Assembly: GCF_009834545.1 (NCBI RefSeq)
Contig: NZ_CP019427.1
Location: 2,610,001 to 2,674,000 of the forward strand
DNA: 64,000 nt
Direction: 5' to 3'
Source: Pseudomonas sp. S04
Lineage (GTDB): Bacteria > Pseudomonadota > Gammaproteobacteria > Pseudomonadales > Pseudomonadaceae
In this document: positions 11,192-57,610 of the stretch, piece after piece
Layout of the letters: each line of letters opens with the position of its first letter
Numbering within the stretch: the first letter of the stretch is position 1
The notes under the pieces: generated by a model
Database searches by the model: none
What the model saw: only the letters and a program-made list of their open reading frames with translations
What the model was told of the DNA's origin: nothing
Translations under genes and position numbers: made by a program

Positions 11192-11237
11192 TCCCCCAAC
11201 CCTTTCGCATTCCATTCAAAATCAAGGACACATCCTC

Positions 11238-11646: not shown

Positions 11647-11664
11647 CTTGCATAGGGGGTTCCG

Positions 11665-26874: not shown

Positions 26875-27217
26875 AATCCACACCTTGATTTCCCGCAACG
26901 CTACTGTTTTGGTGTCGACCTGTCTAGCTGCAAGGGTTGGGACGTCGGGTACAGATCCGCGATCAGCATTTAGTCGTGCATCTTCCGCATACCAACGCCC
27001 GGAAGAGCGACTAAAGAGTCGACGTCCGTTAAGGCGAGGTCTCGGCGCAAAAGGGCATTCCCAGTTTCGTCGGGCTTGCGTTTGGCGAGATCGCTGACGG
27101 CCAACCTTCGGCACGCTGGTCTACGGTCATTATGGCGAAGCTGGAAAGAGGCTTCGTACTCTGGAGCTAATGGAAATAAGTGGACAATACCTCTACAGCG
27201 TAATGTCTGCTTATGGC
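26875..27217. other. Gene-free stretch upstream of AlbA_2 gene
   Basis: 343 bases with no supported gene. It must contain the promoter of the minus-strand AlbA_2 gene. Part of it (about 26990-27110) is GC-rich and different in composition from the AT-rich gene, possibly host-derived repeat remnants. Confidence 0.35.
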
Positions 27218-28636: not shown

Positions 28637-30763
28637 ATGCGTCGTACTCTGGTGTCCATCTGCGTGCTTCAGGCATTCTCCGTGTCCTCCTGGGCAGAAG
28701 AAGCCACAACTGAAAAAGCCAGTCTGGAGTTGCAAGCGACTGACATCGTTGGCACAGCAGATTTTGAAACCGCCCTTGGGCCAGTTGACGGTTATCGCGC
28801 GACGCGGTCGGCCAGCGCTACGCGCACCGACACTTCGATCCACGAAACGCCACAGTCCATCAGCGTGGTCACCAGGGATGTCGTCGAGGACATCAGTGCG
28901 ACAAGGTTGCAGGACGCTCTCGATTACGCCGGTGGTGTGGGGCGGGCCAACAATTTCGGCGGACAGGGGCTGACTACCTTTACCGTGCGCGGCTTTACCA
29001 CCGGGGAGTTCTATCGCAACGGGTTCCCGATCAACCGTGGTTATCCGAACATGCCCGATGCCAACATCATCGAGCGACTGGAAGTGCTGCGAGGGCCGGC
29101 GACCATGCTCTATGGCCGAGGCGATCCAGGTGGCACCTTCAACGTCATCTCCAAGCAGCCCCTGGCCGTGCCCACTGTGACCCTGGGGAGCCAACTCGAC
29201 GACCAGGGCATGCAGCGCGGCACGCTGGACGCCTCCGGCCCGTTGGACGAAGAGGGCCGCCTGGCCTATCGCCTGAACGTGGTGGGTGAGGGCGGTGATA
29301 CCTTCCGCGATCATGTCGAAACCGAACGCTACGGCGTGACCCCGGTGCTGTCCTGGCAGGCCACCGACGAGACCAAGGTGATTTTCGAAGGCGATTTCAT
29401 GCGCAACAATCACCCGCTCGACCGTGGCCTGACGCGCTATCCAAACCAGATCGGCACCGCCTCGCGCGACACCTTCTTCGGCGAAAAAGACGTTGGCAAA
29501 CTGCACAACGACAACAACATGGCGCAGCTGCGGTTCGAGCATCTGCTGAGCGATAACTGGACGTTGGGCGGTGGATTCCAATGGCTCGACGGGACCCTGG
29601 CGGGGAATGCGGTCGAAGCCAACGGTGTGGCTTCGGACGGGCGCACCCTGGGCCGTAACTTCAATTACCGCAAGCTGGAGTGGACGGACAAGGACACCCA
29701 ACTCAACCTCACCGGACATTTCACCGCAGGCGGTTTAGATCACACCCTGCTGACCGGCGTCGAGTACGAGGATTACGACTACCAGTCGATCATCCAGCGC
29801 TCCAGCGGAGACGCCAGTGCCTATCCGATCGATATCTTCAATCCGGTGTATGGCCAGCCGCGTCCAGCCTTGACCCGCACCCCGACCAACGACAAGGAAA
29901 ACCTCAAGACCTACGCCGCGTTCATCCAGGATCAGGTGGCCGTGACCGAGCGCTTGCGCGTCCTGGCCGGAGCCCGTTTCGAACGCTTCGAGCATGCCTA
30001 CCAAACCTTCGTGCCGGCCGGCAGAAGCTGGGAGGCCAGCGACAATGCCGTGACCCCGCGCGTTGGTGTGACCTATGACCTAACCGATACCGTGGCGATT
30101 TATGCCGACACGGCGCGCTCGTTCAAGCCCAATACCGGTGCCAGTCGCCAGGGCGGTGGTTTCGAACCGGAAAAGGGCAAGTCCTATGAGCTGGGTATCA
30201 AGTGGGAAGCGCTGGACAGTCAATTGAGTGTCGACGCGGCGATCTACCAGATCGAAAAGCGCAACGTACTCACCACCGATCCTGTGGACTCGACGTTCAG
30301 CGTGGCGGCAGGCGAGGTGCGCAGCCGTGGTTTGGACCTGAACATCGCCGGCAACCTGACCCCGCAATGGCGGGTGATCGGCGGCTACGCCTATGTCGAT
30401 GCGCAAGTGACCAAGGACAACGTCATCGAATCCGGCACCCGGCTGATGAACATCCCGCAGAGCAGCTTCAGCCTGCTCAATGTCTACGAGTTCCAGGATG
30501 GCGCGCTCAAGGGTCTGGGGCTTGGCACCGGGCTCAAGTACGTCGATGAGCGCGCAGGGCAGACCGCCAACACAGCGTTTTCGATGGGTAGCTACACGGT
30601 GGTCGACCTGCTGAGCTACTACAAGGTGAACGACAGGGTCAGGCTCAATCTGGATGTGAAAAACCTGGCGGATGAAGATTATGAGGAGGGGGCGTTCGGC
30701 AACGTTTACGCTTATCCAGGGGCGCCGAGAACAGTGCAGGTCGGTATTTCCTACACGTTGTGA
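28637..30763 (+). CDS. TonB-dependent siderophore receptor
   Basis: A 708-residue outer-membrane receptor with a signal peptide (about residues 1-20, cleaved near SSWA-EE). The plug domain follows (SIHETPQSISVVTRDVVED; LEVLRGPATMLYGRGDPGGTFN), then a 22-strand barrel ending in the C-terminal aromatic/hydrophobic pattern QVGISYTL. There is no N-terminal secretin/TonB signalling domain, and no sigma/anti-sigma pair is nearby, so it is a plain transporter. It is likely Fur-regulated. The ligand cannot be told from sequence; a ferric siderophore of the ferrichrome or coprogen class is typical of the family. Confidence 0.93.
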   Translation: MRRTLVSICVLQAFSVSSWAEEATTEKASLELQATDIVGTADFETALGPVDGYRATRSASATRTDTSIHETPQSISVVTRDVVEDISATRLQDALDYAGGVGRANNFGGQGLTTFTVRGFTTGEFYRNGFPINRGYPNMPDANIIERLEVLRGPATMLYGRGDPGGTFNVISKQPLAVPTVTLGSQLDDQGMQRGTLDASGPLDEEGRLAYRLNVVGEGGDTFRDHVETERYGVTPVLSWQATDETKVIFEGDFMRNNHPLDRGLTRYPNQIGTASRDTFFGEKDVGKLHNDNNMAQLRFEHLLSDNWTLGGGFQWLDGTLAGNAVEANGVASDGRTLGRNFNYRKLEWTDKDTQLNLTGHFTAGGLDHTLLTGVEYEDYDYQSIIQRSSGDASAYPIDIFNPVYGQPRPALTRTPTNDKENLKTYAAFIQDQVAVTERLRVLAGARFERFEHAYQTFVPAGRSWEASDNAVTPRVGVTYDLTDTVAIYADTARSFKPNTGASRQGGGFEPEKGKSYELGIKWEALDSQLSVDAAIYQIEKRNVLTTDPVDSTFSVAAGEVRSRGLDLNIAGNLTPQWRVIGGYAYVDAQVTKDNVIESGTRLMNIPQSSFSLLNVYEFQDGALKGLGLGTGLKYVDERAGQTANTAFSMGSYTVVDLLSYYKVNDRVRLNLDVKNLADEDYEEGAFGNVYAYPGAPRTVQVGISYTL

Positions 30764-31230: not shown

Positions 31231-32109
31231 TCACTTCGCCACCGCCGTCATCAGCAGCTTGCGAATCTCCCCGGTAATCGCGCTTTTGGTGCCTTGCTCC
31301 AATATCCCCACCCGGCGTACCGCCAAGTCGCCGGGCAGCGGCAGCACTCGCAGGCTGGGGTCCTTGTGCCAGTCGAAGTTCTTCAGCAAGGGCACGATTG
31401 CCACGCCGACTTGTTGGCGAACCAGGTCGGCGATGCCGATGATGGAGTTCAGTTCGAGAATTTCCAACGGCTCGACGGACTCACTCTTGATGATTGCCTG
31501 TACCTTGCGCCCGACTGCCGTGGACCTGTCGTAGCGAATAAACGGCTGGGTTCTCAGCAGTTCCACGGCGTCGTCAATGCCGGCGGTTTGCGTGGCATTG
31601 GCGAGCATGACGATCGGTTCGTTGTAGAGCAGGGTCCAGCTCAATCCATCGAAGTTTTGCCGCGCGGTCTCGATCAACAGCGCGGCGTCGAGCTTGGCGG
31701 CATGCACCAGGTTGACCACTTCGTCGGAGCGGGCAGTCATCAAGTTGACCGATATCCTCGGGTGCAGTTTTTTCAGTTGCACCAGGCAATTGGCGAGCAG
31801 GCCCATGCCGGAGGTAATGCCGCCGATGGACACTTCACCTTCCATTGCCACGCCTTCGGGCGCTTCGGCGATCATTTGCTCGTAGTCCGCCAGCAGGCGC
31901 TTGGCTTTGGGCAGCAACAACACCCCGTCGCGGCTCAGTTTGATCTGCCGATGACTGCGGTCGAACAGCGGTCGGCGCATCTCTTCTTCGAGTGCGCGCA
32001 TTTGCTGGCCGACCGCGGCATTGGTCAGGGCCACGCGGTCGGCGGCGGCGGCAAAGCTGCCGTATTCGGCGACGGCGATAAAGGTCTTGAAAAAACGAAT
32101 ACTGCTCAT
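31231..32109 (-). CDS. LysR-type transcriptional regulator
   Basis: A 292-residue LysR regulator. The N-terminal winged helix-turn-helix is SIRFFKTFIAVAEYGSFAAAAD ... AVGQQMRALEEEM, followed by the periplasmic-binding-protein-like effector domain. Divergent from the peptide catabolism operon starting at 32242, it is the likely local activator. A dyad in the shared space could be its binding site. The chosen start (32109, MSSIRFF) fits family length; an earlier in-frame ATG at 32142 is possible. Neither has a clear ribosome site. Confidence 0.9.
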   Translation of the reverse strand: MSSIRFFKTFIAVAEYGSFAAAADRVALTNAAVGQQMRALEEEMRRPLFDRSHRQIKLSRDGVLLLPKAKRLLADYEQMIAEAPEGVAMEGEVSIGGITSGMGLLANCLVQLKKLHPRISVNLMTARSDEVVNLVHAAKLDAALLIETARQNFDGLSWTLLYNEPIVMLANATQTAGIDDAVELLRTQPFIRYDRSTAVGRKVQAIIKSESVEPLEILELNSIIGIADLVRQQVGVAIVPLLKNFDWHKDPSLRVLPLPGDLAVRRVGILEQGTKSAITGEIRKLLMTAVAK

Positions 32110-32162
32110 GGAAAGGGCCGTAGTCAGGGGGTATCGCTGCATCGTAAAGGGTTTGTTTACTC

Positions 32163-32183
32163 AAACTAAAGTTTAATTAGTTT
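32163..32183. promoter_or_regulatory. LysR-type operator dyad in divergent promoter
   Basis: AAACTAA-N7-TTAGTTT, a perfect 7-bp dyad with T-rich surroundings between the regulator and the hydrolase gene. It is of the T-N11-A kind of interrupted dyad bound by LysR proteins. The centre is 64 bases from the regulator start and 69 from the operon start. Confidence 0.55.
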
Positions 32184-32241
32184 TTCTTTTTATAGCCTCC
32201 GCCCAATACTCATTCCCGAACTGACTCGGCGAACTTTCCAC

Positions 32242-33120
32242 ATGAGCAATTTAGACACCACTTCAGATAACAACCCCGAACAACTGGCCCTGCGTGCTGC
32301 CAAGAGCGTGTATCACCTCGGTGCTACCACCGTGTATTCACACACCGAAGACAGCCGTTTTGCCTACACCCTCTACGTGCCTGAGGCGATTGAAGACAGC
32401 AGCCGGCCAGTGGACCTGGTGGTCTCGCTGCACGGCTCGACCCGGGCGATGGAGATCTATCGCAATGGCTTCGCGGAATTTGGCCGTTGGAACGATTGCG
32501 TGATTCTGTCCCCACTGTTCCCGGTCGGCGTCCTGGGTGACAACAATGGGGACGGCTACAAGCAGTTGGTCGAGGGCGATATCCGCTACGACCAGGTCCT
32601 GCTCGACATGATCGCCGGCGTCGGTAAACGTTATGGTCGGCGCTTCGATACCTTCGCGCTGTTTGGTTATTCCGGCGGCGGGCAATTCACTCATCGATTC
32701 TGCTACTTGCACCCCGAGAAACTCTGGGCAGCGTCCATCGGTGCGCCGGGATCGGTGACTTTGCTGGATGCCGATCAGGATTGGTGGGTAGGGGTGCGGG
32801 ACTTCGCGGCGCGATTCGGCAAACCGCTGAACCTGCAAGCCTTGCAGCAACTGCCGGTGCACATGGTGGTGGGTGACTCGGACCTCGAGACCTGGGAGAT
32901 CACCCACCGCGAAGGTGGCAAACACTACATGGCCGGTGCCAACGCCGCCGGACGTACACGCCCGGAACGCCTGGCCAGCTTGCAGGCAAGTTTCCAAGCC
33001 GCCGGCGTACAGGTGCACTTCGACCTGTTACCCAACGTGGCTCACCAGGGCATCAAGGCGATGCCGGCGGCCCAGGACTTTTTCGCCAAGGTGCTGCGGC
33101 ACAAGCGCAGCCTTGGCTGA
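32242..33120 (+). CDS. Alpha/beta hydrolase (esterase/amidase type), first gene of operon
   Basis: A 292-residue alpha/beta hydrolase with nucleophile elbow GYSGGG (Ser144), an oxyanion segment SLHGSTR near residue 62, and a likely catalytic His in NVAHQG near the C-terminus. The Asp is probably in VVGDSDLETWE. It has no signal peptide, so it is cytoplasmic. It resembles poly-hydroxyalkanoate depolymerase or feruloyl-esterase-like enzymes. It begins an operon with a peptide-type importer, so it may act on the imported compound. The substrate is not evident. Confidence 0.8.
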   Translation: MSNLDTTSDNNPEQLALRAAKSVYHLGATTVYSHTEDSRFAYTLYVPEAIEDSSRPVDLVVSLHGSTRAMEIYRNGFAEFGRWNDCVILSPLFPVGVLGDNNGDGYKQLVEGDIRYDQVLLDMIAGVGKRYGRRFDTFALFGYSGGGQFTHRFCYLHPEKLWAASIGAPGSVTLLDADQDWWVGVRDFAARFGKPLNLQALQQLPVHMVVGDSDLETWEITHREGGKHYMAGANAAGRTRPERLASLQASFQAAGVQVHFDLLPNVAHQGIKAMPAAQDFFAKVLRHKRSLG

Positions 33121-33246
33121 TACACCACTGCCAGATGCACTCAGAACAGGCCGTATAACAATAACTAAGGATTCACTCATTCTGATGCCGGTCCTGCCTT
33201 GGCCTTCGCCACTGACCGGAATACTTCTTCAAGGAGTCGTTCTCCC

Positions 33247-34815
33247 GTGAATAATTACGTAAAGACCGCGCTCGTCGTCGCGATGTCGACATGCACAGTG
33301 TCCCTTGCCGTTGCGCAAGACAAGGTCATCAATGTGGGCCTCAATGGCGATATCCGCAGCACCGACCCAGGCGTCAACCGCGACGACAATACCGATGCGG
33401 TCATGATGCATATCGTCGAAGGGCTGGTGGCGTATCGCGAAGACACCAGCATCGCGCCGATGCTGGCCAGCGCGGTGGATGTCTCGCCGGACGGCCTGCG
33501 CTACACCTTCACCCTGCGCGATGGGGTGCACTTTCAAAATGGCCAGTTGTTGACGGCCAAGGACGTGCAATGGACCTGGCAGCGCTACCTTGACCCCAAG
33601 ACCCAGTGGCGCTGCCTGGCGGAGTTCGATGGCCGTGGCGCGGCCAAGATCGTCGATGTCTCCACCCCCGACGCGCAGACCGTGGTGTTCCAACTGGACC
33701 AGGCCAATGGCTTGTTCCTGGCTGCGATGGCCCGCCCGGATTGCACCGGCAGCGGCATTCTGCATCCGGACTCCCTGGCGGCCGATGGCAGTTGGCGCGC
33801 CCCGATTGGTACCGGTCCATTCACCTTGGGCAAATGGCAAAAGGGCCAGTACGTCGAGCTGGATCGCTTCAAGGATTACTCCCCGCGGGCCGAGGCCGAG
33901 GCGGACGGGTACACCGGCAACAAGCAGGCGTTTGTCGACAAGGTGCGTTTCGAGGTGATCCCCGATTCGGCGTCGGCCAAGGCTGCGCTGCTGTCGGGTG
34001 GCGTGGACCTGCTGCCGGACGTGACGGCGATGGATGCCGCAGAACTCAAGAAGGTCAAGAACCTGCAGATCCAGGTCAGCCCGATCATGACCATCAGCGG
34101 CCTGTTGTTCCAGACCCGTGACCCACTGCTCAAGGACGTGCGCATTCGTCGTGCGGTGGCGCTGTCCCTGGATTACGCGCAGATGGTGGCGGCGTTGTCC
34201 GATGGTTTGTCGGTGGTCAACAACTCGGTGATTCCGACCGCCAGCCCGTACTACGACGCCACTGCGCACCAGGGTTACAGCTACAACCTCGACGAGGCCC
34301 GGCGCCTGTTGAAAGAGGCGGGTTACGCCGGTGAAAAGATCCGCATGCTGGTCAACAAGCGCTACCCGCAGATGTTCGACATGGGCTTGCTCAGCCAGGC
34401 CATGACCCAGGCGGCGGGGCTCAATATCGAGATGGAGACCCTGGAGTGGGGCACGCAGTTGGAGCGCTACCAGACCGGCAGCTACCAGATGATGTCGTTC
34501 TCTTATTCGGGGCGTTTCGACGCGGCGCAAAGCTATGAATCGGTGATCGGCGACAAGCACAAGGAGCCGCGCAAAGTCTGGGACAACCCCGAGGCCCTGG
34601 CGATATTGCGTGAGGTCCAGCGCGAGGTTGACCCCGCCAAGCGCCAACCGTTGTTCGACAAGCTGCATACCTTGATGCTCAAGGATGTGCCAATGGTGGC
34701 CATCTACAACGGTACCGCCATCGGCGCGATGGGCAAGCGCGTTGAAGGGTACCGCTCCTGGCCCGTTGCCAAGCCGCGCCTGTGGGGCGTGAAGCTGGCC
34801 GACACTTCCAAGTAA
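33247..34815 (+). CDS. ABC transporter periplasmic dipeptide/oligopeptide-binding protein
   Basis: A 522-residue SBP family 5 protein. The GTG start at 33247 follows AAGGAG and gives a clear signal peptide (MNNYVKTALVVAMSTC ... SLAVAQ-DK); an earlier in-frame ATG would bury this. Family features include the N-terminal DPGVNRDDNTD, FTLRDGVHFQNGQLLTAKDV and the C-terminal half DLGLLSQAM-type segment. It delivers peptides or similar amides to the two permeases downstream. Confidence 0.9.
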   Translation: MNNYVKTALVVAMSTCTVSLAVAQDKVINVGLNGDIRSTDPGVNRDDNTDAVMMHIVEGLVAYREDTSIAPMLASAVDVSPDGLRYTFTLRDGVHFQNGQLLTAKDVQWTWQRYLDPKTQWRCLAEFDGRGAAKIVDVSTPDAQTVVFQLDQANGLFLAAMARPDCTGSGILHPDSLAADGSWRAPIGTGPFTLGKWQKGQYVELDRFKDYSPRAEAEADGYTGNKQAFVDKVRFEVIPDSASAKAALLSGGVDLLPDVTAMDAAELKKVKNLQIQVSPIMTISGLLFQTRDPLLKDVRIRRAVALSLDYAQMVAALSDGLSVVNNSVIPTASPYYDATAHQGYSYNLDEARRLLKEAGYAGEKIRMLVNKRYPQMFDMGLLSQAMTQAAGLNIEMETLEWGTQLERYQTGSYQMMSFSYSGRFDAAQSYESVIGDKHKEPRKVWDNPEALAILREVQREVDPAKRQPLFDKLHTLMLKDVPMVAIYNGTAIGAMGKRVEGYRSWPVAKPRLWGVKLADTSK

Positions 34816-34826
34816 GGCGTACCACT

Positions 34827-35768
34827 ATGTTTCGATTCATCTTGCACAGGCTCGGCATGGCGGTGCCGACCCTGCTGCTGATCTCGGTGATTGTGTTTGC
34901 CTTGATCCGCCTGATTCCCGGCGACCCCGCGTTGCTGATGCTGGGCGACATGGCCGACCCGCAAAGCCTCGCCGACATGCGCAGCAGCCTGGGGCTGGAC
35001 CACTCGGTGCCGACCCAGTACCTGATCTGGATCAAGTCGGTGCTCAGTGGCGACCTTGGGGTGTCCATCAGCAGTCGCCAGCCCGTGTTGGAGTTGCTGG
35101 TCGAGCGTTTCAGCGTCAGCGCCACGGTGGTGCTCGTCGCGGTGTTGCTGGCGACCCTGCTCGCGGTACCGGTGGGCTTGCTCGCGGCCTGGAAGCAAAA
35201 CAGCGCGATGGACCTGGGCCTGGTGGCAACGGCGACCTTGCTGTTGTCGGTGCCAAGCTTCTGGCTGGGCTTGTTGCTGCTGTATGTGTTCGGCATCCAG
35301 TTGGGTTGGTTGCCGGTGATCGGCTACGTTGGCTTCGCCAGCGATCCCATGAAGGCGGTGACCTATGTGGTGCTGCCGATCATTACCCTGACCCTGGTGG
35401 AATTCGGCGCCATTGCGCGGATGGCACGGGCCAGCACCATTGAAGTGTTGCGCCTGGAGTACATCGCCCATGCACGGGCCAAGGGATTGTCAGAGGGCGC
35501 GGTGCTGTGGAATCACGCCCTGCGCAATGCGTTTGCGCCGACCTGGACCCTGATCGGCCTGATCCTGGGCAATCTGCTCGGCGGCATTGCAGTCCTGGAA
35601 ACCGTGTTCACCTTGCCCGGCATCGGCCGGTTGATGGTCGATGCGATCTTCTCCCGCGACTATCCGGTGCTGCAGGGTTGCCTGCTGCTGATCACCTGCA
35701 TCTATGTGTTGGTCAACCTGTTGGTGGATCTGGTGTATCCGCTGTTCGATCCAAGGGTGAAGCTATGA
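34827..35768 (+). CDS. ABC transporter permease, DppB-like
   Basis: A 313-residue inner-membrane permease. It begins MFRFILHRLGMAVPTLL and has six predicted spans. The EAA-type loop (EYIAHARAKGLSEGAVLWNHALRNAFAP) that contacts the ATPase is clear. The start at 34827 is 11 bases after the upstream stop. The end overlaps the next permease (ATGA). Confidence 0.93.
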   Translation: MFRFILHRLGMAVPTLLLISVIVFALIRLIPGDPALLMLGDMADPQSLADMRSSLGLDHSVPTQYLIWIKSVLSGDLGVSISSRQPVLELLVERFSVSATVVLVAVLLATLLAVPVGLLAAWKQNSAMDLGLVATATLLLSVPSFWLGLLLLYVFGIQLGWLPVIGYVGFASDPMKAVTYVVLPIITLTLVEFGAIARMARASTIEVLRLEYIAHARAKGLSEGAVLWNHALRNAFAPTWTLIGLILGNLLGGIAVLETVFTLPGIGRLMVDAIFSRDYPVLQGCLLLITCIYVLVNLLVDLVYPLFDPRVKL

Positions 35769-36634
35769 ACCTCAAGACTCCTGCCTTGCCGAGCGGGCTG
35801 GATACCCAGCCTCGACGGAGCTGGCGTTACCCGCCGTTGAATGCCTTGATCGGCGGCAGTTTACTCGCGGCACTGGTATTGCTGGCGTTGCTCGGCGTGG
35901 TGTGGACACCTTATGACCCGCTCAAGCTGGACTTGTTGTCGCGCCTGCACGCGCCGAGCGCTGCACACTGGCTGGGCACCGACGAGTTCGGCCGTGACGT
36001 GTTCAGTCGCTTGATCATTGGGGCACGCACCAGCCTGTGGATCAGCCTGCTCTCGGTGAGCGTGGCGGTTATCTGCGGCACGGTGATCGGCATGCTCGCC
36101 GGTTACCTGCGCGGCTGGACCGACCGCGTGCTGATGATGCTCAACGATGCGCTGCTGGCGTTTCCCGGGATCCTCATGGCCCTGGGTATCATGGCGATCG
36201 TGGGTGCCAGCCAGTACGGAATCGTGCTCGCCCTGGGTATCGCCTACACCCCCTCGGTGGTCCGGGTGGTGCGTGGCAGCGTGTTGTCGTTGCGTGAGCT
36301 GGAGTTCATCGAGGCCTCACGGGTGATCGGCAACTCAGAGCTGTACACCATGTTCCGCCACATCACCCCCAACTGCCTGGCGCCGTTGTGTGTGTTGGCC
36401 ACCAGCATGTTCGGCTGGGCCTTGCTCTCGGAGAGCGCGCTGAGCTTCCTTGGCCTGGGCGTGCCACCGCCGGCTGCCACCTGGGGCAGCATGCTCTCGG
36501 CAAGCCGCACCTACATCTCGACGGCACCGTGGCTGGGGATCTTCCCGGGCATCTTTATCAGCCTGACGTTGCTGGCTATCAATCTGTTCGGCGATGCCTT
36601 GCGCGATCGTCTCGACCCGCGCATGAGGAAATGA
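35765..36634 (+). CDS. ABC transporter permease, DppC-like
   Basis: A 289-residue permease with the N-terminal cytoplasmic helix and hydrophobic span (LIGGSLLAALVLLALLGVVWTPYDP), the HWLGTDEFGRDVFSRLI motif of the C-type family, and a coupling loop. It starts at ATG 35765, overlapping the DppB-like stop. With the preceding gene it forms the transmembrane pair. Confidence 0.93.
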   Translation: MNLKTPALPSGLDTQPRRSWRYPPLNALIGGSLLAALVLLALLGVVWTPYDPLKLDLLSRLHAPSAAHWLGTDEFGRDVFSRLIIGARTSLWISLLSVSVAVICGTVIGMLAGYLRGWTDRVLMMLNDALLAFPGILMALGIMAIVGASQYGIVLALGIAYTPSVVRVVRGSVLSLRELEFIEASRVIGNSELYTMFRHITPNCLAPLCVLATSMFGWALLSESALSFLGLGVPPPAATWGSMLSASRTYISTAPWLGIFPGIFISLTLLAINLFGDALRDRLDPRMRK

Positions 36635-36636
36635 GC

Positions 36637-38268
36637 ATGAGCGTTTCAGTGCCACTACTGGCCGTTGAAAATCTACAGATTCGTGTCGGTACAGACGGTC
36701 CGCTGGCTGTCGACGACTTCAGCTTCACCATGGCTCCCGGGGAAATCGTTGCACTGGTGGGCGAGTCCGGCAGTGGCAAGACCATGGCTGCACGCGCGGC
36801 CATTGGCTTGCTGCCAGCGCCGATGAACGTGTGTGGCGGGCAAATCATCTTCCAGGGTGAACCGTTGGAGCCCGGCAATGCCAAGGCGATGCGTGGGGTG
36901 CGCGGCGCGCGGATCGGCATGGTGTTCCAGGAACCGATGGTCTCGCTCAACCCCGCGCTGACCATTGGCCGGCAGATGAGCGAGGCGCTCAAGTTGCACA
37001 CCGAGTTGGACGCGGCGACGATCCGTCAGCGTTGCAGCGATATGCTGCAGCGCATCGGTATCAAGGACGCCGAGAAATGCCTGGCATCCTATCCGCACCA
37101 GTTCTCCGGTGGCATGCGCCAACGCATTATGCTCGCCTCGGTGATGCTGCTGCGCCCGGCGCTGTTGATTGCTGACGAGCCGACCACGGCACTCGATTGC
37201 CTGGCACAACTGGACGTGATCGAGTTGATGCTGGAGCTGACCCGCGAGCAGGGCACCGCCATTCTGTTCATCAGCCATGACCTCTCCCTGGTCGCGCGTT
37301 ATGCCCACAAGGTGGTGGTGATGCGTGCGGGCAAGGCGGTGGAGCAGGGCCGAATCGAAGACATCCTGTTCGCGCCGAAGGCCGACTACACCCGCCAGTT
37401 GCTTGAAGCGCTGCCACGGCGCGGCGCGCTGGTGCCATTGCCAGCGGCCGAAAGTGCGCTGTTGCAGGTCCAGGATGTGTGCATCGAACATCCGGGGCCG
37501 CGCAGCTTTTGGGGGCGCAGCGTGCCCAAGCGGGTGGTGCATTCGGTGAACCTGAGCATCGCACCGGGCGAGACCCTGGCGTTGGTCGGTGGCAGTGGTT
37601 CGGGCAAGACCACCCTCGGCCGTGCCGTGGTCGGGTTGGTTACGCCATGCGCCGGGTCGATCCTGTTCCAGGGCGTGGATATCCTCAAGGCCGCCAACCG
37701 TGCGCACCGCCTGCAATGCCAGATGATTTTCCAGGACCCGTATTCATCCCTCGATCCGCGCATGACCGTGGGCCAGATCATCGCCGAGCCGCTGCGCCAT
37801 GAACCGGGCCTGACGGCTGCGCAAAAACGCCAGCGGGTCACCGACACACTGCTCGATGTGGGCTTGCCCGAGCAGTTCCGTGAGCGCTTTGCCCATCAAC
37901 TCTCGGGTGGCCAGCGCCAGCGCGTGGCAATTGGCCGAGCGCTGGTCCGGCGGCCGAAACTGGTGATTGCCGACGAGCCGATTTCGGCGTTGGACATGAC
38001 CATTCAAAAGCAGATTCTGGAGTTGTTCGAACGCCTGCAGCGCCAATACGGGTTCGCCTGCCTGTTCATCTCCCACGACCTGTCGGCGGTGGAGCGCATT
38101 GCCCATCGCGTGGCAGTGATGAACCAGGGTGAGGTGGTGGAAATGGGCCCGCGCGAGAGGATTTTCGACACTCCACAACACCCTTACACCCGCCGGCTGC
38201 TCGCGGCGGCCAGCCCCTTGGAAAAACGTGCGGATGGCAGTTACCGCCTCCGTGCCAGCGTGATTTAG
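36637..38268 (+). CDS. Fused ABC transporter ATPase (DppD-DppF type)
   Basis: A 543-residue protein with two complete nucleotide-binding domains. Domain 1 has Walker A GESGSGKT (42-49), signature FSGGMRQR and Walker B LLIADEPTT; domain 2 has GGSGSGKT, LSGGQRQR and LVIADEPIS. Each ends in the HPYT/DYT-type oligopeptide ABC C-terminus. Such fusions replace the usual two separate ATPase genes. The ATG at 36637 lies 6 bases after AGGAA; the ATG at 36631 would leave no spacing. Confidence 0.92.
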   Translation: MSVSVPLLAVENLQIRVGTDGPLAVDDFSFTMAPGEIVALVGESGSGKTMAARAAIGLLPAPMNVCGGQIIFQGEPLEPGNAKAMRGVRGARIGMVFQEPMVSLNPALTIGRQMSEALKLHTELDAATIRQRCSDMLQRIGIKDAEKCLASYPHQFSGGMRQRIMLASVMLLRPALLIADEPTTALDCLAQLDVIELMLELTREQGTAILFISHDLSLVARYAHKVVVMRAGKAVEQGRIEDILFAPKADYTRQLLEALPRRGALVPLPAAESALLQVQDVCIEHPGPRSFWGRSVPKRVVHSVNLSIAPGETLALVGGSGSGKTTLGRAVVGLVTPCAGSILFQGVDILKAANRAHRLQCQMIFQDPYSSLDPRMTVGQIIAEPLRHEPGLTAAQKRQRVTDTLLDVGLPEQFRERFAHQLSGGQRQRVAIGRALVRRPKLVIADEPISALDMTIQKQILELFERLQRQYGFACLFISHDLSAVERIAHRVAVMNQGEVVEMGPRERIFDTPQHPYTRRLLAAASPLEKRADGSYRLRASVI

Positions 38269-38398
38269 GTACTGCAACACCCCAGGCCTGTGCTTTGCAA
38301 ACCCACCCTTCGTCAATCGCTGATTGGCGAAGCAGGCGAAGCCATGGTCGAAGAAAACAAAAACAACTCCACTCAACCTGTCTGCCAGGAACCTACAC

Positions 38399-39679
38399 AT
38401 GAATATCCGCTTCAACACAGTCCTCGCCAGTGCCAGTGTCATGGGCGCCGGTTTCATGCCCTTGTTTGCCCAGGCTGACTTCGTCGCCGACAGCAAGGCT
38501 GCGCTTGAACTGAAGAACTATTACTTCAACCGCGACTATCGCGAGTCCAGCGGCCAGAGCAAGCGCGCCGAGTGGGCACAGGGGTTCACCCTCAACGTCC
38601 AATCGGGTTTTACCGAAGGCACTGTCGGTTTTGGCCTCGACGCGGTCGGCATGTTCGGGATGAAGCTCGATTCGAGCCCGGACAACTCGGGCACCGGGCT
38701 GTTGTCCCGCTCAAGCGTCGCCGAACCGGGTGCTCCCAGCTATGCCCGCCGTGCCCACGACAACTACTCCAAGCTCGGCGTCACCGGCAAGGCGCGCCTG
38801 GCGCAAAGCGAGCTGCGTGTGGGCTATATGGTGCCTGACCTGCCCACCCTGCAACCGAACCTCAGTCGTCTGTTCCCGCAGAGTTTCAGCGGCACCGCGC
38901 TGACCTCCAGGGACATCGACCAGTTGACCCTGACCGTGGGGCAACTGGACCAGGTCAAGCAGCGCGATTCGACCAACTACGAAGACATGGGCCTCACCAG
39001 CCAGTACGGCGCGTACAAAAGCAGCGCCAAAAGCGATGAGTTCCGCTACGCCGGCGGTGAGTACAAGCTGACGCCTAACACCATCGCCACCTACCAGTTC
39101 GCGCAATTGGAGAGCTTGTACCGCCAGCACTACCTGGGCTTGAAAAACAGCTTCAAGTGGGGCCCCGGCACGTTCAAGACGGACGTCCGCTACTTCGACG
39201 CGAGCGAAGATGCCGCAGGGCTGGCCGGCAAAGTCGATAACCGTGCGTTGAGTACGCGTGTGGGCTATGGCCTGCATGGCCACAACCTGAGTGGCGGTTA
39301 CCAGGAGCAGTACGGTTCGACGCCGTTCACCTATGTCGACGGCACCAACACGTACCTGTTCACCGAGTACCAACTGGCGAACTTCTCCCAGACCGGCGAG
39401 CGCGTCTGGCACGCCCGCTATGACTATGACTTCGCCACGCTGGGCATTCCCGGCCTGCTGTTCTCGACCCGTTATGCCAAGGGCGACAACGCCAAGGTCA
39501 TTGGCTTCGACGGCGAAGGGCGCGAGTGGGAACGCGATCTGAGTCTTGGCTATGTGGTGCAGAGCGGCACTTTCAAGGACGTGTCGCTGCGTTGGCAGAA
39601 CGCTAGCGCCACCAGCAACTTCGCCCGTGACACCAATGAAAACCGAGTGATCGTCGGCTACACCGTGGCGCTCTGGTAG
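38399..39679 (+). CDS. OprD-family outer-membrane porin
   Basis: A 426-residue OprD-type porin with a signal peptide (~25 residues ending PLFAQA-DF), the early ALELKNYYFNRDYR motif, and a barrel ending with the aromatic C-terminus VIVGYTVALW. It sits among importer and enzyme genes, so it is likely the outer-membrane gate for the same substrate. OprD relatives take up basic amino acids, peptides or aromatics. An AGGAA site precedes the start at 38399. Confidence 0.92.
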   Translation: MNIRFNTVLASASVMGAGFMPLFAQADFVADSKAALELKNYYFNRDYRESSGQSKRAEWAQGFTLNVQSGFTEGTVGFGLDAVGMFGMKLDSSPDNSGTGLLSRSSVAEPGAPSYARRAHDNYSKLGVTGKARLAQSELRVGYMVPDLPTLQPNLSRLFPQSFSGTALTSRDIDQLTLTVGQLDQVKQRDSTNYEDMGLTSQYGAYKSSAKSDEFRYAGGEYKLTPNTIATYQFAQLESLYRQHYLGLKNSFKWGPGTFKTDVRYFDASEDAAGLAGKVDNRALSTRVGYGLHGHNLSGGYQEQYGSTPFTYVDGTNTYLFTEYQLANFSQTGERVWHARYDYDFATLGIPGLLFSTRYAKGDNAKVIGFDGEGREWERDLSLGYVVQSGTFKDVSLRWQNASATSNFARDTNENRVIVGYTVALW

Positions 39680-39746
39680 CAGTGACGGCGTGCAGCAGGG
39701 GCAGCCTGTTGCACGCCCAGGCAATGGAAATGAGGGGATAGATCAG

Positions 39747-41264
39747 ATGACGAGTTTGCCGTTGCGGCGGGCATTGCCCAGCCAACAACGCGTATCGGCG
39801 CGTGGCGTGAGTGATTTCATCGATGCGGTGAACGCTGCGTGCCTTCAGTTGCACAGTTTCATGCTGTACCGCGACGGTGCGGTGGTGGCTGAAGCATTTT
39901 GGGCGCCTTACCGTGCCGACCGACTCCATGTGCAGCATTCGGCAACCAAGAGCTGGGTGTCCATGGCCATTGGGCTATTGGTTGATGACGGCGTGCTGTC
40001 ACTGGAGGCCAAGGTGGTGGATTTTTTCGCCGCCGACTGCCCGAAACCGGTCAGCGCCAACCTGGCCGCCATGACCGTGGGCGATTTGCTGACCATGCGC
40101 ACCGGGCATCGCCAGGGTATTTCTGGCGGGGCCTGGCGGGGGCGCAGTGAAAGTTGGGTGAAGTTGTTCCTCAATGAGCCGGTTGCAGACCTGCCAGGGC
40201 AGCACTTCATCTACAGCAGCGCGTCGAGCTTCATGCTCTCGGCCATTGTCAGCGTGGTCAGCGGCCAAACGGCGTTCGAGTTGTGCAACACCCGTCTGTT
40301 CCAACCCATGGGCATGGGCCGCATCGAGTGGGACCTGGCACCGGGTGGCTTCAACACGGGTGGCAATGGCTTGAGTTGCAGCACCGAGGACTTGCTCAAG
40401 TTCGGCGTGCTGCACTTGCAGCAAGGTAACTGGGAGGGGCAACAATTACTGTCCAGAGAGTGGGTGGCGCAGGCCACGCGCGGGCACGTCGACGATGTAT
40501 GGATGGGTGCCTTCGATGGCAAGCGCTACCTGGGTCGCGACGAGTCGAGCAACGCAGCTGTGACGCGCCGCGAGGGCTATGGCTACCAGTGGTGGATGAC
40601 CCTGCACGGCGGCTATTACGCCTCCGGGGTGTTTGGCCAGCAGTGCATTGTGCTGCCGCAACACAACGCGGTGATTGCGTTTACCGCAGGGCTGCCATTG
40701 GGTGAAAGGCGCCTGCATAGCCTGCTGTGGGAGCACCTGTTGCCGGCGTTGGGCGTGCCCGGCGACTGCGCGGCAGATGCCGATCTTGCCGCGCAGTTGG
40801 CCAATCAACGGCGGCCGGTTATGACAGGTGCGTCGACCTCGCCGCATCAGGCGCAGTTCAGCGGCACGTTTGTGATGGAGGCCAATGAAGATCAGGTCAG
40901 CACGATACGCCTGGAGTTTGGCCCCGACCATTGCGATTTTTACCTCACCGACCCGCGTGGCACCCACTGCATTCGCGCAGGCCTGGCCGACGGTATCGAA
41001 AGCCAGACCAGCATGACCGGACACTATCTACATCACCAATACCAGCCGCAAATCACCCCGGTGGTGGCGCAGGCGCGCTGGACCGAGGACGGCGCGTTGA
41101 GCATGACCTGGCAATTTGTCGAAACCGCCTTTTGTGACCACGTCACTTGCCGCATCGAGCGCGGCAGCTTGTCTGTGGACCGCCGCGTCAACGTTAACGC
41201 TGGCCCGTTGCAGCGCCCGACGCTGACCGGCCATCCAACCAGTACTTTGCAGGAGTCGCTATGA
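39747..41264 (+). CDS. Serine hydrolase of the class C beta-lactamase fold (NylB/aminopeptidase type)
   Basis: A 505-residue hydrolase. The catalytic SxxK is SATK (Ser65, Lys68) and the second motif is YSS (Tyr156). The fold is shared by class C beta-lactamases, esterases, D-aminopeptidases and 6-aminohexanoate-oligomer hydrolase NylB. There is an extra C-terminal beta domain of ~130 residues. No signal peptide is present, so it acts inside the cell. The gene lies between the porin and the aminotransferase and overlaps the latter, which suggests amide cleavage releasing an amine-bearing product. Confidence 0.82.
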   Translation: MTSLPLRRALPSQQRVSARGVSDFIDAVNAACLQLHSFMLYRDGAVVAEAFWAPYRADRLHVQHSATKSWVSMAIGLLVDDGVLSLEAKVVDFFAADCPKPVSANLAAMTVGDLLTMRTGHRQGISGGAWRGRSESWVKLFLNEPVADLPGQHFIYSSASSFMLSAIVSVVSGQTAFELCNTRLFQPMGMGRIEWDLAPGGFNTGGNGLSCSTEDLLKFGVLHLQQGNWEGQQLLSREWVAQATRGHVDDVWMGAFDGKRYLGRDESSNAAVTRREGYGYQWWMTLHGGYYASGVFGQQCIVLPQHNAVIAFTAGLPLGERRLHSLLWEHLLPALGVPGDCAADADLAAQLANQRRPVMTGASTSPHQAQFSGTFVMEANEDQVSTIRLEFGPDHCDFYLTDPRGTHCIRAGLADGIESQTSMTGHYLHHQYQPQITPVVAQARWTEDGALSMTWQFVETAFCDHVTCRIERGSLSVDRRVNVNAGPLQRPTLTGHPTSTLQESL

Positions 41265-42586
41265 ACGATCTATCCAACCCATCAGGTTCCCGGTCCAGCG
41301 CGTTCTGGGCACCGTTTACCCCGATGCGCCAGTTCCAGCAGCAACCGATGATGTTCGCCAGCGCCGACGGCATGTACTACACCACCACCGACGGCCGACG
41401 GGTACTCGATGCGATGGCGGGGTTGTGGTGCGTCAACGCCGGACATGGCCAGGCCAAAATCGTCGAGGCGATTCGCGAAGCGGCGGGGCGCCTGGACTTT
41501 GTCTCCTCATTCAAGATGAGCCATCCCCACGCCCTGGAGATGGCCGAGCGTTTGATCGAGATCAGCCCGGCCGGCATCGAGCAGGTGTTCTTCACCAACT
41601 CAGGTTCCGAGGCGGTCGACACTTCGCTGAAAATTGCTCGGGCCTATCACCAGGCCCGGGGCGACAGCCGCCGGACCAAGTTTATCGGGCGGGCCAAGGG
41701 TTACCACGGCATGGGCTTTGGCGGGCTGTCGGTGTCGGGTATCGGCCGGCAGAAACGTGAGTTTGGCCCGCTGCTGGGGGAGGTGTCACACCTGCCGCTG
41801 CCTTATGACGCGCAGATGCGTTTCAGCGCGGGACTGCCACAGCACGGCGCCAGTTACGCCGATGCGTTGTCACAACTGCTGGAGATCCAGGACCCGAGCA
41901 GCGTGGCCGCGGTGATCGTTGAGCCAGTGACAGGCTCCGGCGGTGTCTACCCGCCGCCCCAGGGGTACTTGCAACGCCTGCGCGAGATTTGCACCCGGCA
42001 CGGCGTGCTGTTGATTTTCGACGAAGTGATTACCGGCTTTGGCCGTGTCGGGGCCAGCTTCGCCGCGCAAGCCTTCGGCGTGACACCGGACCTGATCACC
42101 ACGGCGAAAGGCCTGACCAACGGCGCCGTACCCATGGGCGGTGTGCTGGTCAGCGGCGCGGTGTATGAAGCGTTCATGGCCGGGCCAACCAATGTCATCG
42201 AGCTGATGCACGGCTACACCTATTCGGCGCATCCATTGGCGTGTGCGGCCGGGTTGGCGACCATCGAGTTGCATCGTGAATTGGGCATCAATCAACACGT
42301 CAACGCGGTCAGCGGGCTCTGGCAGTCCGCCGCGCTGACGCTGCGCGGTGTTGGCCCGGTGCTCGACGTCCGCACCGTCGGTTTGCTCTGCGCCGTCGAA
42401 CTCGAACCGCGCCCCGGTGCCGCCGGCGCACGGGGCAGCGAAGTGGCGCAGTGGTGCTTCGAGCACGGCGTACTGGTGCGCGGCTCGGGCGATACCATCG
42501 TGATTTCGCCGCCGCTGGTGATCAGCCCGCAGGAGATCGCCCAGGTGTTCGACACCTTGGCGGATGCGTTGCAACAGGTCGCCTGA
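41261..42586 (+). CDS. Class III omega-amino acid aminotransferase
   Basis: A 441-residue PLP-dependent aminotransferase of the beta-alanine/omega-amino acid:pyruvate type. FFTNSGSEAVD (~110-120) is the phosphate-binding turn, FDEVITGFGR holds the cofactor Asp254, and TTAKGLTNG holds the Schiff-base Lys283. It starts on the ATGA overlap with the serine hydrolase. The product would be an omega-semialdehyde, the substrate type of the next gene. The natural amine is not shown by sequence. Confidence 0.93.
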   Translation: MNDLSNPSGSRSSAFWAPFTPMRQFQQQPMMFASADGMYYTTTDGRRVLDAMAGLWCVNAGHGQAKIVEAIREAAGRLDFVSSFKMSHPHALEMAERLIEISPAGIEQVFFTNSGSEAVDTSLKIARAYHQARGDSRRTKFIGRAKGYHGMGFGGLSVSGIGRQKREFGPLLGEVSHLPLPYDAQMRFSAGLPQHGASYADALSQLLEIQDPSSVAAVIVEPVTGSGGVYPPPQGYLQRLREICTRHGVLLIFDEVITGFGRVGASFAAQAFGVTPDLITTAKGLTNGAVPMGGVLVSGAVYEAFMAGPTNVIELMHGYTYSAHPLACAAGLATIELHRELGINQHVNAVSGLWQSAALTLRGVGPVLDVRTVGLLCAVELEPRPGAAGARGSEVAQWCFEHGVLVRGSGDTIVISPPLVISPQEIAQVFDTLADALQQVA

Positions 42587-42600
42587 TGGGAGTCGATGGC

Positions 42601-44019
42601 ATGTCCGATTTGTTTGAGTTCTACATCGACGGCGCCTGGGTCAAACCCCATGGCGAAACCGTCGAAACAGTGGTGAACCCGTCCACCGAGCAGGCGGTGG
42701 CGCGCATCATCCTCGGTGACGCGCAGGATGTGGACCGTGCAGTCAGTGCGGCCCGCCAGGCGTTCCCGGCGTTTGCCGCGAGTTCGCTGCAAGCGCGTAT
42801 CGACCTGCTGCAGCGCATTATCGAAGGCTACCAACGCCACAGCGAAGCGTTGATCGAAGCGGTTCACCTGGAGATGGGCGCGCCGCTGTCCCTGGCCCGC
42901 AGCGCCCATGTGCCGGCGGGACTGGGCCATCTGACGCAGGCGCTGCAGGTGTTGCGCGAGTACCGCTTCGAACGGTGCCTGGGCAATACGCTGGTGGTGC
43001 GTGAGCCGATTGGCGTATGCGCCTTGATCACGCCCTGGAACTGGCCGCTCAATCAACTCACCTGCAAGCTCGCGCCAGCCCTCGCGGTGGGTTGCACCGT
43101 GGTCCTCAAGCCGAGTGAGCGCGCGCCGCTGTCGGCGCTGATCCTCGCGCAAATCCTGCATGAGGCCGGGGTGCCCAAAGGCGTGTTCAACCTGGTCAAC
43201 GGCGACGGCCCTGGCGTGGGTACCGCGCTGGCACGCCATGCCGACGTGGACATGGTCTCATTTACCGGCTCGACCGGCGCTGGTATTGCCGTGGCGAAGG
43301 CGGCGGCCGATACGGTCAAGCGGGTGTCCCAGGAGCTGGGCGGCAAATCGGCGAACATCCTGCTGGACGATGCGGTCCTGCCCGACGCGGTGCGTCACGG
43401 GGTCTTGGGGTGTATCCGCAACAGTGGCCAGTCGTGCAATGCGCCGACGCGGCTGCTGGTGCCCCGCGCCCAGCAACAGGCGGTGATTGATCTCGCCAGG
43501 GACGTGCTGGCGCAGGTGTGCTTCGACGACAGTAACCCGGCGTCAGCCCTCGGCCCGGTGGCGAACGCCGTGCAGTTCGAGCGTGTACAGGCGATGATCG
43601 CGCAGGCGATGACCGAGGGGTCGCGGTTGGTCGCCGGAGGGCTGGGCCGGCCGCAAGGCATTGAGCGCGGCTACTATGTACAACCGACGATATTTGCCGA
43701 CGTCACCGCGGATATGCGAGTGGCGCGTGAAGAAATCTTCGGCCCGGTCCTGGCGATCATGCCTTACGACAGCGAAGCCGAGGCCATAGCCATTGCCAAC
43801 GACAGCCTTTACGGTTTGTCGGGGTACGTCACCTCGGCGAGCCTGGATCGCAGTCGCGCGGTGGCCCGCCAACTGCGTACCGGGATGGTCCACATCAACG
43901 GCGCGCGTGCTGACCAGGCCGCGCCGTTTGGCGGATACAAACAGTCGGGCAATGGACGTGAGTGGGGTGAGCAGGGGTTTGACGAGTACCTGGAGAGCAA
44001 GTCGATGTTCGGCTACTAG
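42601..44019 (+). CDS. NAD(P)-dependent aldehyde dehydrogenase
   Basis: A 472-residue aldehyde dehydrogenase with catalytic Glu245 (SQELGGKS) and Cys279 (NSGQSCNAP), plus the TPWNWPL and FTGSTGAG cofactor motifs. The ATG at 42601 has GGGAGT upstream, better than the ATG at 42586. As the last gene of the operon after the aminotransferase, it likely oxidises the resulting semialdehyde to a dicarboxylic acid. Confidence 0.93.
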   Translation: MSDLFEFYIDGAWVKPHGETVETVVNPSTEQAVARIILGDAQDVDRAVSAARQAFPAFAASSLQARIDLLQRIIEGYQRHSEALIEAVHLEMGAPLSLARSAHVPAGLGHLTQALQVLREYRFERCLGNTLVVREPIGVCALITPWNWPLNQLTCKLAPALAVGCTVVLKPSERAPLSALILAQILHEAGVPKGVFNLVNGDGPGVGTALARHADVDMVSFTGSTGAGIAVAKAAADTVKRVSQELGGKSANILLDDAVLPDAVRHGVLGCIRNSGQSCNAPTRLLVPRAQQQAVIDLARDVLAQVCFDDSNPASALGPVANAVQFERVQAMIAQAMTEGSRLVAGGLGRPQGIERGYYVQPTIFADVTADMRVAREEIFGPVLAIMPYDSEAEAIAIANDSLYGLSGYVTSASLDRSRAVARQLRTGMVHINGARADQAAPFGGYKQSGNGREWGEQGFDEYLESKSMFGY

Positions 44020-44132
44020 CGGCTTGAGGCGTGTGCCAAGGGGGGACTATCAAGGTCCTGATTAACCTTCTTGCTTGCAACCCTTGTGGTTAAATGGCAA
44101 GTCCAGGCCATCGTTAGTAGGGATAGAGTTGT

Positions 44133-44519
44133 ATGGGAATGGAAAGCACCGTCTTGGCATTCTTGAGGCGCTATCGGTACTGGTTACTGGCGTTGATGAT
44201 CGCGGCCGCACTGGTAAACGCCTTTGTGCGTTTTGCCGGGGATGGACCGAATTTCTTTGGCGCGCTGCTGGTGCACGGATGGCTTATCCAGGCAGTCTTT
44301 GCGTACTGTCGCGGCGGTTGGGTCGCGCTTGGCCCAGGTGGATTATCCAAAGATGCGAACCCCATGGGCCGAGCCGCGTTAGCCGCAACCGCATTTGCAT
44401 TTTACTTGCTGACGTTCACCTACGATGGCGCGCTGCGCGATGACTCGGTGCATGAAAGAACAGCCGAGGACTGGACGATGCCTACCCGGGAGGAGTTCCG
44501 GCAGGCGAAGGAGCAATAG
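44133..44519 (+). CDS. Small membrane protein, function unknown
   Basis: A 128-residue protein with about three hydrophobic segments (WLLALMIAAALVNAFV; FGALLVHGWLIQAVFAY; AALAATAFAFYLLTFTY) and an acidic C-terminal tail. I do not recognise the family. A TAGGGATAG site precedes the ATG. It stands alone between the operon and the CPBP protease gene. Confidence 0.65.
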   Translation: MGMESTVLAFLRRYRYWLLALMIAAALVNAFVRFAGDGPNFFGALLVHGWLIQAVFAYCRGGWVALGPGGLSKDANPMGRAALAATAFAFYLLTFTYDGALRDDSVHERTAEDWTMPTREEFRQAKEQ

Positions 44520-44637
44520 CCAGCTGGTACCTCGTCGACAAACGCTGCGACGGTTCACTCCGTTAATAACCAGGCAGGGATAAACACAGTCTCAGCTTGC
44601 TGCGCAGCGCCTACCCTCAGCATTTGCTTCGCATCCC

Positions 44638-45381
44638 ATGGACGGCCAAATGATCGCAGAAGGACTTTCGCTACTCATCGACTACGGTATTTACCTGCTT
44701 CCAGGTCTTTGCCTCTGTGCCCTGTGGTTCTGGCTGACACCGAAGACGCAGCCAGGTCTACGCATTGTGATCCTGCTGCTGACCTTCGTACTGATGCGCG
44801 ATGTGATGACCCCGCTGCGCTTATGGTCCCTGAGTGGCGGCGTGCAGATCGGCTTTATTTCAAATCCATTGGTCCTGGCCACGCTAGGCGTTCTGTCGCT
44901 GGCGATCATCGCCGCTCTGGCACGGATCGCCCCCGAGTTATGGAAACTCGTGGTCTGGCGCAAGTGCAACCTGGCCGCGGGACTTGCCCTGGGCATCGCT
45001 GCCGGCTGTGCGATCGGTGTCCCGCTGCGGCTCTATCAAGGCACCGATGTCGGCGAGATAGCAGGGTACTGGCCTTGGTTGCTGGGCATGGTCGTGCTGG
45101 CCTACGGCGGCAACGCGCTGGAAGAGGTGCTGTTTCGCGGGTTCCTGCAAGGACACCTCGAACAGCACACTTGTGCACTACGAGCAGCCCTGATCAGTGC
45201 TATCGCCTTCGCCGCCTGCCATTCGTTCCTGGCACTGAGCGTTACCCGGATTGGCTGGCCGATTTTACTGTTCACGCTGGTTGAGGGGCTGGTCTGCGCT
45301 TTGGTGCGCATGCGCTATGGGGTAAGTGCTGCCATAGCCGCACATGGGACGGCGATAGTGCTGATTGCCGTGCCCATGTAG
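44638..45381 (+). CDS. CPBP family intramembrane metalloprotease
   Basis: A 247-residue membrane protein of the CPBP/Abi family. The diagnostic EEVLFR (Glu162-Arg167) lies in GNALEEVLFRGFLQG, followed by conserved His in FAACHSFLA. About six to seven membrane spans. Members cleave or bind membrane proteins and some give bacteriocin self-immunity; the substrate here is unknown. The start may be ATG 44638 or the in-frame ATG at 44650. Confidence 0.85.
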   Translation: MDGQMIAEGLSLLIDYGIYLLPGLCLCALWFWLTPKTQPGLRIVILLLTFVLMRDVMTPLRLWSLSGGVQIGFISNPLVLATLGVLSLAIIAALARIAPELWKLVVWRKCNLAAGLALGIAAGCAIGVPLRLYQGTDVGEIAGYWPWLLGMVVLAYGGNALEEVLFRGFLQGHLEQHTCALRAALISAIAFAACHSFLALSVTRIGWPILLFTLVEGLVCALVRMRYGVSAAIAAHGTAIVLIAVPM

Positions 45382-57471: not shown

Positions 57472-57610
57472 ATCAACTCCCCATTTTTGCTGCCGATTTT
57501 GTGCCGGTCGATTCCGACAATATGCAGGCCAAAGCCGACCGTATACTTACTGCCTTCCCTGGTTTCGCGTGCCAAGCTATCTGAAAAAAATGGCTTGGAA
57601 AACAATTACT

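Follow-up and report, generated by a model that had tools for sequence, protein, structure and literature searches.

Which compound does a bacterium take up and degrade with a gene cluster that joins a peptide-type importer and a porin to a serine hydrolase, an aminotransferase and an aldehyde dehydrogenase? The question is raised by an operon in a 64,000-bp stretch of DNA from Pseudomonas sp. S04 (contig NZ_CP019427.1, positions 2,610,001 to 2,674,000; hereafter the window), a strain whose 6.1-Mb genome is a single contig. The operon consists of nine genes on one strand and a divergent gene for a LysR-type regulator (Table 1), named by Pfam and NCBIfam, and the nearest named relatives of its proteins and of the locus as a whole are Pseudomonas. 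On balance, we lean towards the view that it serves the catabolism of a small carboxylate amide, in which beta-alanine or a related short omega-amino acid is joined to a carboxylic acid. What the sequence itself shows is the gene content and its conservation, the folds and catalytic motifs, and the retention of both importer and aminotransferase subfamily beside either of two hydrolase genes. No paper describing this operon by its title or the start of its abstract was found among the literature matches listed.

The initial annotation had placed an ATP-binding cassette (ABC) importer, an OprD porin, a NylB-fold serine hydrolase (SerH), an omega-aminotransferase (AT) and an aldehyde dehydrogenase (ALDH) in one gene cluster, and both gene content and conservation confirm this. 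When genome contigs were scanned with SerH, 99 relatives came up; from the best 80, 55 loci (L037-L091; 32 of Pseudomonas, 23 of other genera) were used to map the ten operon proteins, and the 25 loci left out had a SerH of at most 32% identity. SerH, AT and ALDH occur together in all 32 Pseudomonas loci mapped, accompanied by importer and porin in 31. In the window these three genes are tightly joined, with intergenic gaps of -4 bp (SerH-AT) and 14 bp (AT-ALDH). Two clades can be told apart. Firstly, the 12 loci of clade 1 (L037-L048; SerH 86-89% identical) all contain the whole ten-gene set, including a LysR that is 94-97% identical. Secondly, in clade 2 (20 loci, SerH about 61-67% identical, that of L082 being fragmentary) the order substrate-binding protein (SBP), two permeases, ATPase, porin, SerH, AT, ALDH is found in 19 loci, the remaining one (L055) being a short contig with SerH-AT-ALDH. 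SerH was detected in 30 of the 398 genomes of a genus sample at E <= 1e-60, the window genome included, and the operon is therefore patchy.

The LysR regulator and the additional alpha/beta hydrolase (ABH), which had been regarded as parts of the unit, are both present here, but neither defines it. Within the stretches mapped, ABH and an adjacent LysR were not seen in any of the 20 clade-2 loci; instead, a GntR-type gene on the opposite strand precedes SerH in all 20 (GntR and FCD domains tested on L049), which rules out LysR as the defining regulator. ABH was found in 14/14 clade-1 genomes, 0/11 clade-2 genomes and 1/48 SerH-negative genomes (52% identical in that one). It tracks clade 1 exactly and is thus accessory rather than essential. 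LysR proteins 39-47% identical to that of the window adjoin ABH genes in three Burkholderiales-type loci (L160, L163, L164). The divergent region contains one block that is kept in the window and in all 11 relatives aligned, and this block is probably the operator/promoter; a scan of positions 31900-44700 for sigma-70-like promoters gave 0 sites.

One indication of the substrate class comes from the AT. It passes the AptA model NF052567 with 617 bits (cut-off 500), and it scores 403 bits against beta-alanine:pyruvate AT and 200 bits against the Vibrio fluvialis AT. The Caulobacter enzyme, equated by name with the AptA of this model, is active on beta-alanine and beta-aminobutyrate. ATs that lie beside the importer in other genera are 66% (Chelatococcus), 57% (Paraburkholderia), 56% (Rhizobium), 54% (Roseomonas) and 53% (R. 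etli) identical to the AT of the window, and five of six operon-linked ATs from other genera pass the AptA cut-off (586-655 bits); for the AT of Agrobacterium L154, which is 36% identical, the AptA model is not listed. A tree of 20 ATs, in which Pseudomonas is represented by the window and 11 of the 32 loci, places the Chelatococcus AT together with these 12 sequences at 100/99 support; the tree is midpoint-rooted, its deeper forks are open and some of its branches are very long. Another class-III aminotransferase, encoded at 62371-63681 (-) of the window, shares 35% identity with that of the operon within the matched part.

A second indication comes from loci in which SerH is replaced. Three loci, L165 of Chelatococcus, L169 of R. 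etli and L170 of Rhizobium, have the same importer beside an AptA-type AT, but a C45-family gene in place of SerH. Four C45 proteins, those of L161, L165, L168 and L169, score 272-306 bits against the C45 model, above its cut-off of 85; the calls for L170 and L171 are those of the record annotation, and L162 was read by eye. Insect Tan, a member of the C45 family, releases beta-alanine from N-beta-alanyldopamine (PMC10194958). As the same importer and AT subfamily are found beside SerH or C45, we read these loci as one chemistry, cleavage of an amide to yield a short omega-amino acid, carried out by two unrelated hydrolases; this would be a non-orthologous replacement, which is useful in function prediction. 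The AT is also kept with SerH in Paraburkholderia unamae (L067), where a GntR relative, an ALDH and the AT lie on one strand and SerH-SBP-permeases-ATPase on the other, and in Roseomonas (L081), where the AT lies opposite SBP-permeases-ATPase-GntR-SerH-ABH. Elsewhere the set is smaller. Phyllobacterium and a Klebsiella plasmid carry C45, importer and an alpha/beta hydrolase with no AT annotated in the stretch, such statements for plasmids resting on incomplete PLSDB gene tables; Burkholderiaceae-type loci L161 and L162 have a C45-like gene, ABH and importer and no AT match; Ponticoccus L172 has the importer and two alpha/beta hydrolases, with no SerH, C45 or AT annotated; and in Caballeronia L159, a record without annotation, tblastn placed a SerH relative and importer genes on opposite strands. 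The plasmid regions were chosen, not sampled: 8 were examined from 123 records matching SBP and 105 matching ABH, and 6 from 21 matching SerH. Outside Pseudomonas, SerH carriers number 1/349 genomes in the family of L067 (the seed itself), 2/249 in that of L081 (the genomes of L081 and L091) and 2/17 in the order of L064 (the seed and one other). Judged by gene content, import, putative amide cleavage, transamination and oxidation form a recurrent module; the importer with a predicted SerH or C45 hydrolase is its recurrent part, and the AT subfamily accompanies both hydrolases. In this respect the omega-amino-acid amide logic of the initial annotation is partly supported, but close kinship with the nylon route is not supported, since SerH and AT find their better matches elsewhere.

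SerH has the class-C beta-lactamase fold with equivalents of NylB Ser112, Lys115 and Tyr215; its motif S65-x-x-K68 and Y156 are invariant, and it carries an extra C-terminal part (about residues 340-505). In sequence and in fold comparisons, the latter made against the pdb_via structure set only, it matches Lsa45 and PIB-1 better than NylB. Tyr170 of NylB sits in the substrate loop. No tyrosine of SerH stands opposite it in any of three alignments, in which it pairs with L114 (1wyc) or, by count, H121 (1wyb), or SerH has a 12-residue gap (8rlj); the loop alignment is unsure and the residues were not superposed. Against the model for 3-succinylated cholic acid synthase (NF045925), SerH scores 213.6 bits, under the cut-off of 800. 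The second hydrolase, ABH, has no Pfam match. Its fold is nearest to PahZ1 (family profile E 3.6e-12), and it combines this fold with the G-x-S-x-G motif (G-Y-S144-G-G) and the Asp and His of PahZ1/LpqC hydrolases (D214 and H268, both invariant). Identity to PahZ1, poly(aspartic acid) hydrolase-1, is 21%; unlike PahZ1, ABH has no visible signal peptide and lies within an import operon. No signal peptide was seen by eye in SerH either, while SBP has one, and hydrolysis should therefore be cytoplasmic.

The importer belongs to family 5 (dipeptide/oligopeptide/nickel-like). The solved relatives of SBP span AgaA, heme, dipeptide and nickel binders, and are so varied that the ligand cannot be named from SBP. 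The porin is nearest to OpdH (6.1e-126), followed among the next by OpdO (3.6e-99), with porin D at 5.5e-59 and OpdP at 4.1e-32. Its nearest solved relatives are carboxylate porins by name (OpdH cis-aconitate, OpdO pyroglutamate), presumably the OccK group, and its predicted selectivity is of the carboxylate type.

Together, these features suggest the following scheme, in which bond type, substrate, order of steps, regulation and the ALDH substrate are our inferences. The porin would take the amide across the outer membrane, and the ABC importer across the inner membrane. SerH would then open the amide in the cytoplasm by a Ser/Lys/Tyr acyl-enzyme mechanism, AT would transfer the amino group so released onto a keto acid (pyruvate is the probable acceptor), leaving a semialdehyde, and ALDH would oxidise the latter. 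In clade 1, ABH might add a second hydrolysis (of an ester, lactone or beta-amide), and LysR may sense substrate or product.

Several observations weigh against this scheme. First, the genome encodes a second AptA-type AT (C1:758278), which scores 708 bits, shares 43% identity with that of the operon and adjoins a CoA-acylating methylmalonate-semialdehyde dehydrogenase (MMSDH; 693.5 bits), i.e. an ordinary beta-alanine route. As this pair lies elsewhere in the genome, the operon AT may serve another amine; it is a putative specialised copy of the same subfamily (NF052567), which weakens a plain beta-alanine reading. The operon differs from the pair in adding import and hydrolysis, and in its ALDH, which is not of the acylating type: it scores 241.5 bits against CoA-acylating (methyl)malonate-semialdehyde dehydrogenase (TIGR01722; cut-off 448.5). 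This ALDH stays under the cut-off of all 25 NCBIfam models listed, of 41 matched, those for succinate-semialdehyde dehydrogenase (SSADH) and aminobutyraldehyde dehydrogenase included, and its nearest solved relative (6x9l) is an ALDH without stated substrate. Moreover, the ALDH adjoining the AT in L067 is 34% identical to it, and Roseomonas L081 has no match to it in the mapped locus. Second, among the 23 loci mapped outside Pseudomonas, five have SBP and two an AT of >50% identity. In Inquilinus and in a bacterium of the Rhizobiales, SerH and SBP occur with an isopropylmalate dehydrogenase (IPMDH)-like gene and a cupin, and no AT match was found within the locus. Plasmids of Agrobacterium, Shinella and Qingshengfaniella carry SBP-permeases-ATPase-SerH-creatininase-RraA-N-formylglutamate amidohydrolase (FGase)-alpha/beta hydrolase (three of these neighbour families were checked on Shinella), with no AptA-type AT annotated in the stretch, and in Variovorax L158 a distant SerH lies beside tripartite-transporter genes. 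These differing neighbours imply that substrates differ between lineages. Creatininase and SerH are one annotated gene in Agrobacterium L154 (11980-14388); a fused creatininase-SerH protein of 790 aa occurs in P0107 and P0113.

It is possible, though we doubt it, that SerH is an esterase or acyltransferase, that AT acts on a free amine or one released by another enzyme, and that an ester, lactone or gamma-glutamyl compound is degraded. The structure title of Lsa45, the nearest solved SerH relative, is that of a penicillin-binding protein with esterase activity, so that SerH may cut esters; EstG points the same way by name, and the ABH fold is rich in esterases. In addition, SerH of Inquilinus L064 is followed by an SGNH-family gene (assignment tested on the relative in L065), and in R. 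leguminosarum and S. meliloti an ABH relative is followed by ggt, permeases and two separate ATPases. The tight and recurring SerH-AT coupling argues against this possibility, as does the replacement of SerH by a gene of the C45 Ntn-hydrolase family beside the same AT subfamily.

Rather less probable is an amide that contains a polyamine or an omega-amino acid of greater length, such as 6-aminohexanoate, 5-aminovalerate, GABA or acylated putrescine. In the nylon-oligomer route, NylB-NylD-NylE, a serine hydrolase is followed by an omega-AT and an ALDH, and the operon has a hydrolase of the same fold, then an omega-AT, then an ALDH. The ABH-importer locus L161 has Hist_deacetyl-family and FMN_bind_2-family genes nearby. 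The operon differs from the nylon route in its AptA-type AT, its own importer and porin, the C-terminal part of SerH and the C45-family gene that takes the place of SerH in other genera. We have not adopted membership of the nylon/caprolactam systems, given the better matches of SerH and the AT subfamily; the fold is shared too widely, being common to many esterases and beta-lactamases. The AT scores and the ALDH cut-offs given above also speak against longer substrates. On the other hand, beta-alanine:pyruvate-type ATs may accept longer omega-amino acids, as stated in PMC11879879 and for the Pseudomonas F-126 enzyme (PMC3281772), and these points, too, count against the short amide that we favour. 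PMC11879879 also reports that PP_0596 of P. putida is among the transaminases up-regulated on 6-aminohexanoate, which likewise weakens a plain beta-alanine reading, and that knockout of four ATs, including PP_0596, abolished growth on hexamethylenediamine. The caprolactam pathway of P. jessenii (PMC6061476) likewise consists of lactam/amide opening followed by a class-III AT, but its lactam is opened by an ATP-dependent oxoprolinase/hydantoinase-like caprolactamase, unlike SerH, and its AT is described as closest to the V. fluvialis enzyme, unlike the operon AT; the term 'serine hydrolase' is absent from that paper, and the binding proteins induced there are of other families.

A special case of the favoured short-amide reading, unlikely in our view, is pantothenate: SerH would be the missing pantothenase (EC 3.5.1.22), AT would take beta-alanine, ALDH aldopantoate or malonate semialdehyde, and ABH pantoyl lactone. 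The predicted split of an amide into acid and beta-alanine resembles the P. fluorescens pantothenase reaction. The named relatives include P. fluorescens strains and other species of the fluorescens group; the AptA-type AT and the carboxylate-type porin fit as well. In pantothenate breakdown, pantoate is converted to aldopantoate and then to dimethylmalate, and a beta-decarboxylating IPMDH-like gene, of the family expected for dimethylmalate dehydrogenase, is linked to SerH in five loci: the two genes are neighbours in Inquilinus (L064, L070) and Rhizobiales (L065), and in Peristeroidobacter (L076) and Sphingomonas (L073) 3 to 8 kb separate the gene from a more distant SerH (43-44%). Against this, no AT in these five loci exceeds 33% identity to that of the operon, a search of the window genome found no dimethylmalate-type dehydrogenase (best full-length match 42%, presumably LeuB), and no pantoate 4-dehydrogenase, whose gene family is not known to us, was recognised in the operon. 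In PMC10393543, the protein identity of pantothenase, an old activity of P. fluorescens, is stated as unknown in 2023; the only Pseudomonas isolate named there incorporated pantothenate whole, and it was other groups that showed cleavage. We consider it improbable that SerH is the pantothenase long missing from fluorescens-type Pseudomonas, and that the operon serves to scavenge and break down vitamin B5 in a system found repeatedly across Proteobacteria, with SerH and C45 exchangeable before one beta-alanine-type AT. An IPMDH-like dehydrogenase is also present in L127, and a cupin adjoins it in L064, L065, L070, L076 and L127, not in L073; the L065 protein matches 16 NCBIfam models, reaches the cut-off of none and may be a beta-decarboxylating enzyme that still lacks an assignment.

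Ordinary alpha-dipeptide uptake and use, to which the family of the importer would point, is very improbable, because the operon contains no recognised alpha-peptidase, its porin is far nearer to OpdH than to the Gly-Glu dipeptide porin OpdP, and an omega-type AT would be superfluous. A tricarboxylate or citrate-conjugate substrate was considered on account of the OpdH-like porin and aconitase-like genes near SerH relatives, but these links are few and distant. The aconitase-like genes, recognised by eye, lie at 15928-18504 in L076 and at 3484-6132 in L091.

If the short-amide reading is right, a conserved catabolic module gains a testable chemistry, sequences become available to try for pantothenase, and polyamide or beta-peptide work gains NylB-fold hydrolases with their own importer.

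Table 1. Operon (32242-44019) and divergent regulator, in window coordinates.
Feature	Positions	Strand	Basis or remark
LysR-type regulator	31231..32142	-	divergent from operon
Divergent control region, 99 bp	32143..32241		conserved block
ABH, alpha/beta hydrolase, PahZ1/LpqC fold	32242..33120	+	fold and motif; accessory
SBP, family 5, periplasmic	33247..34815	+	signal peptide judged by eye
ABC permease B	34827..35768	+	Pfam/NCBIfam
ABC permease C	35765..36634	+	Pfam/NCBIfam
ABC ATPase, two fused nucleotide-binding domains	36637..38268	+	Pfam/NCBIfam
OprD-family porin	38399..39679	+	nearest OpdH
SerH, 505-aa serine hydrolase, NylB/class-C beta-lactamase fold	39747..41264	+	PF00144
AT, class-III, AptA-type omega-amino acid:pyruvate aminotransferase	41261..42586	+	NF052567
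ALDH, aldehyde dehydrogenase	42601..44019	+	Pfam/NCBIfam

Elsewhere in the window, a TonB-dependent receptor is encoded just upstream of the LysR gene (28637-30763, +), and genes for a contractile tail at 5255-16206 (+), among them baseplate J, sheath and phage minor tail, form a tailocin or prophage tail cluster. A UmuC-like Y-family polymerase (IMS, IMS_C, DUF4113) lies at 20937-22214 (+) and a Schlafen AlbA_2 domain protein at 25729-27114 (-). Finally, positions 57332-60658 (+) encode an unusual 1108-aa fusion of an APH-type kinase, an M23 peptidase and a class-III aminotransferase.

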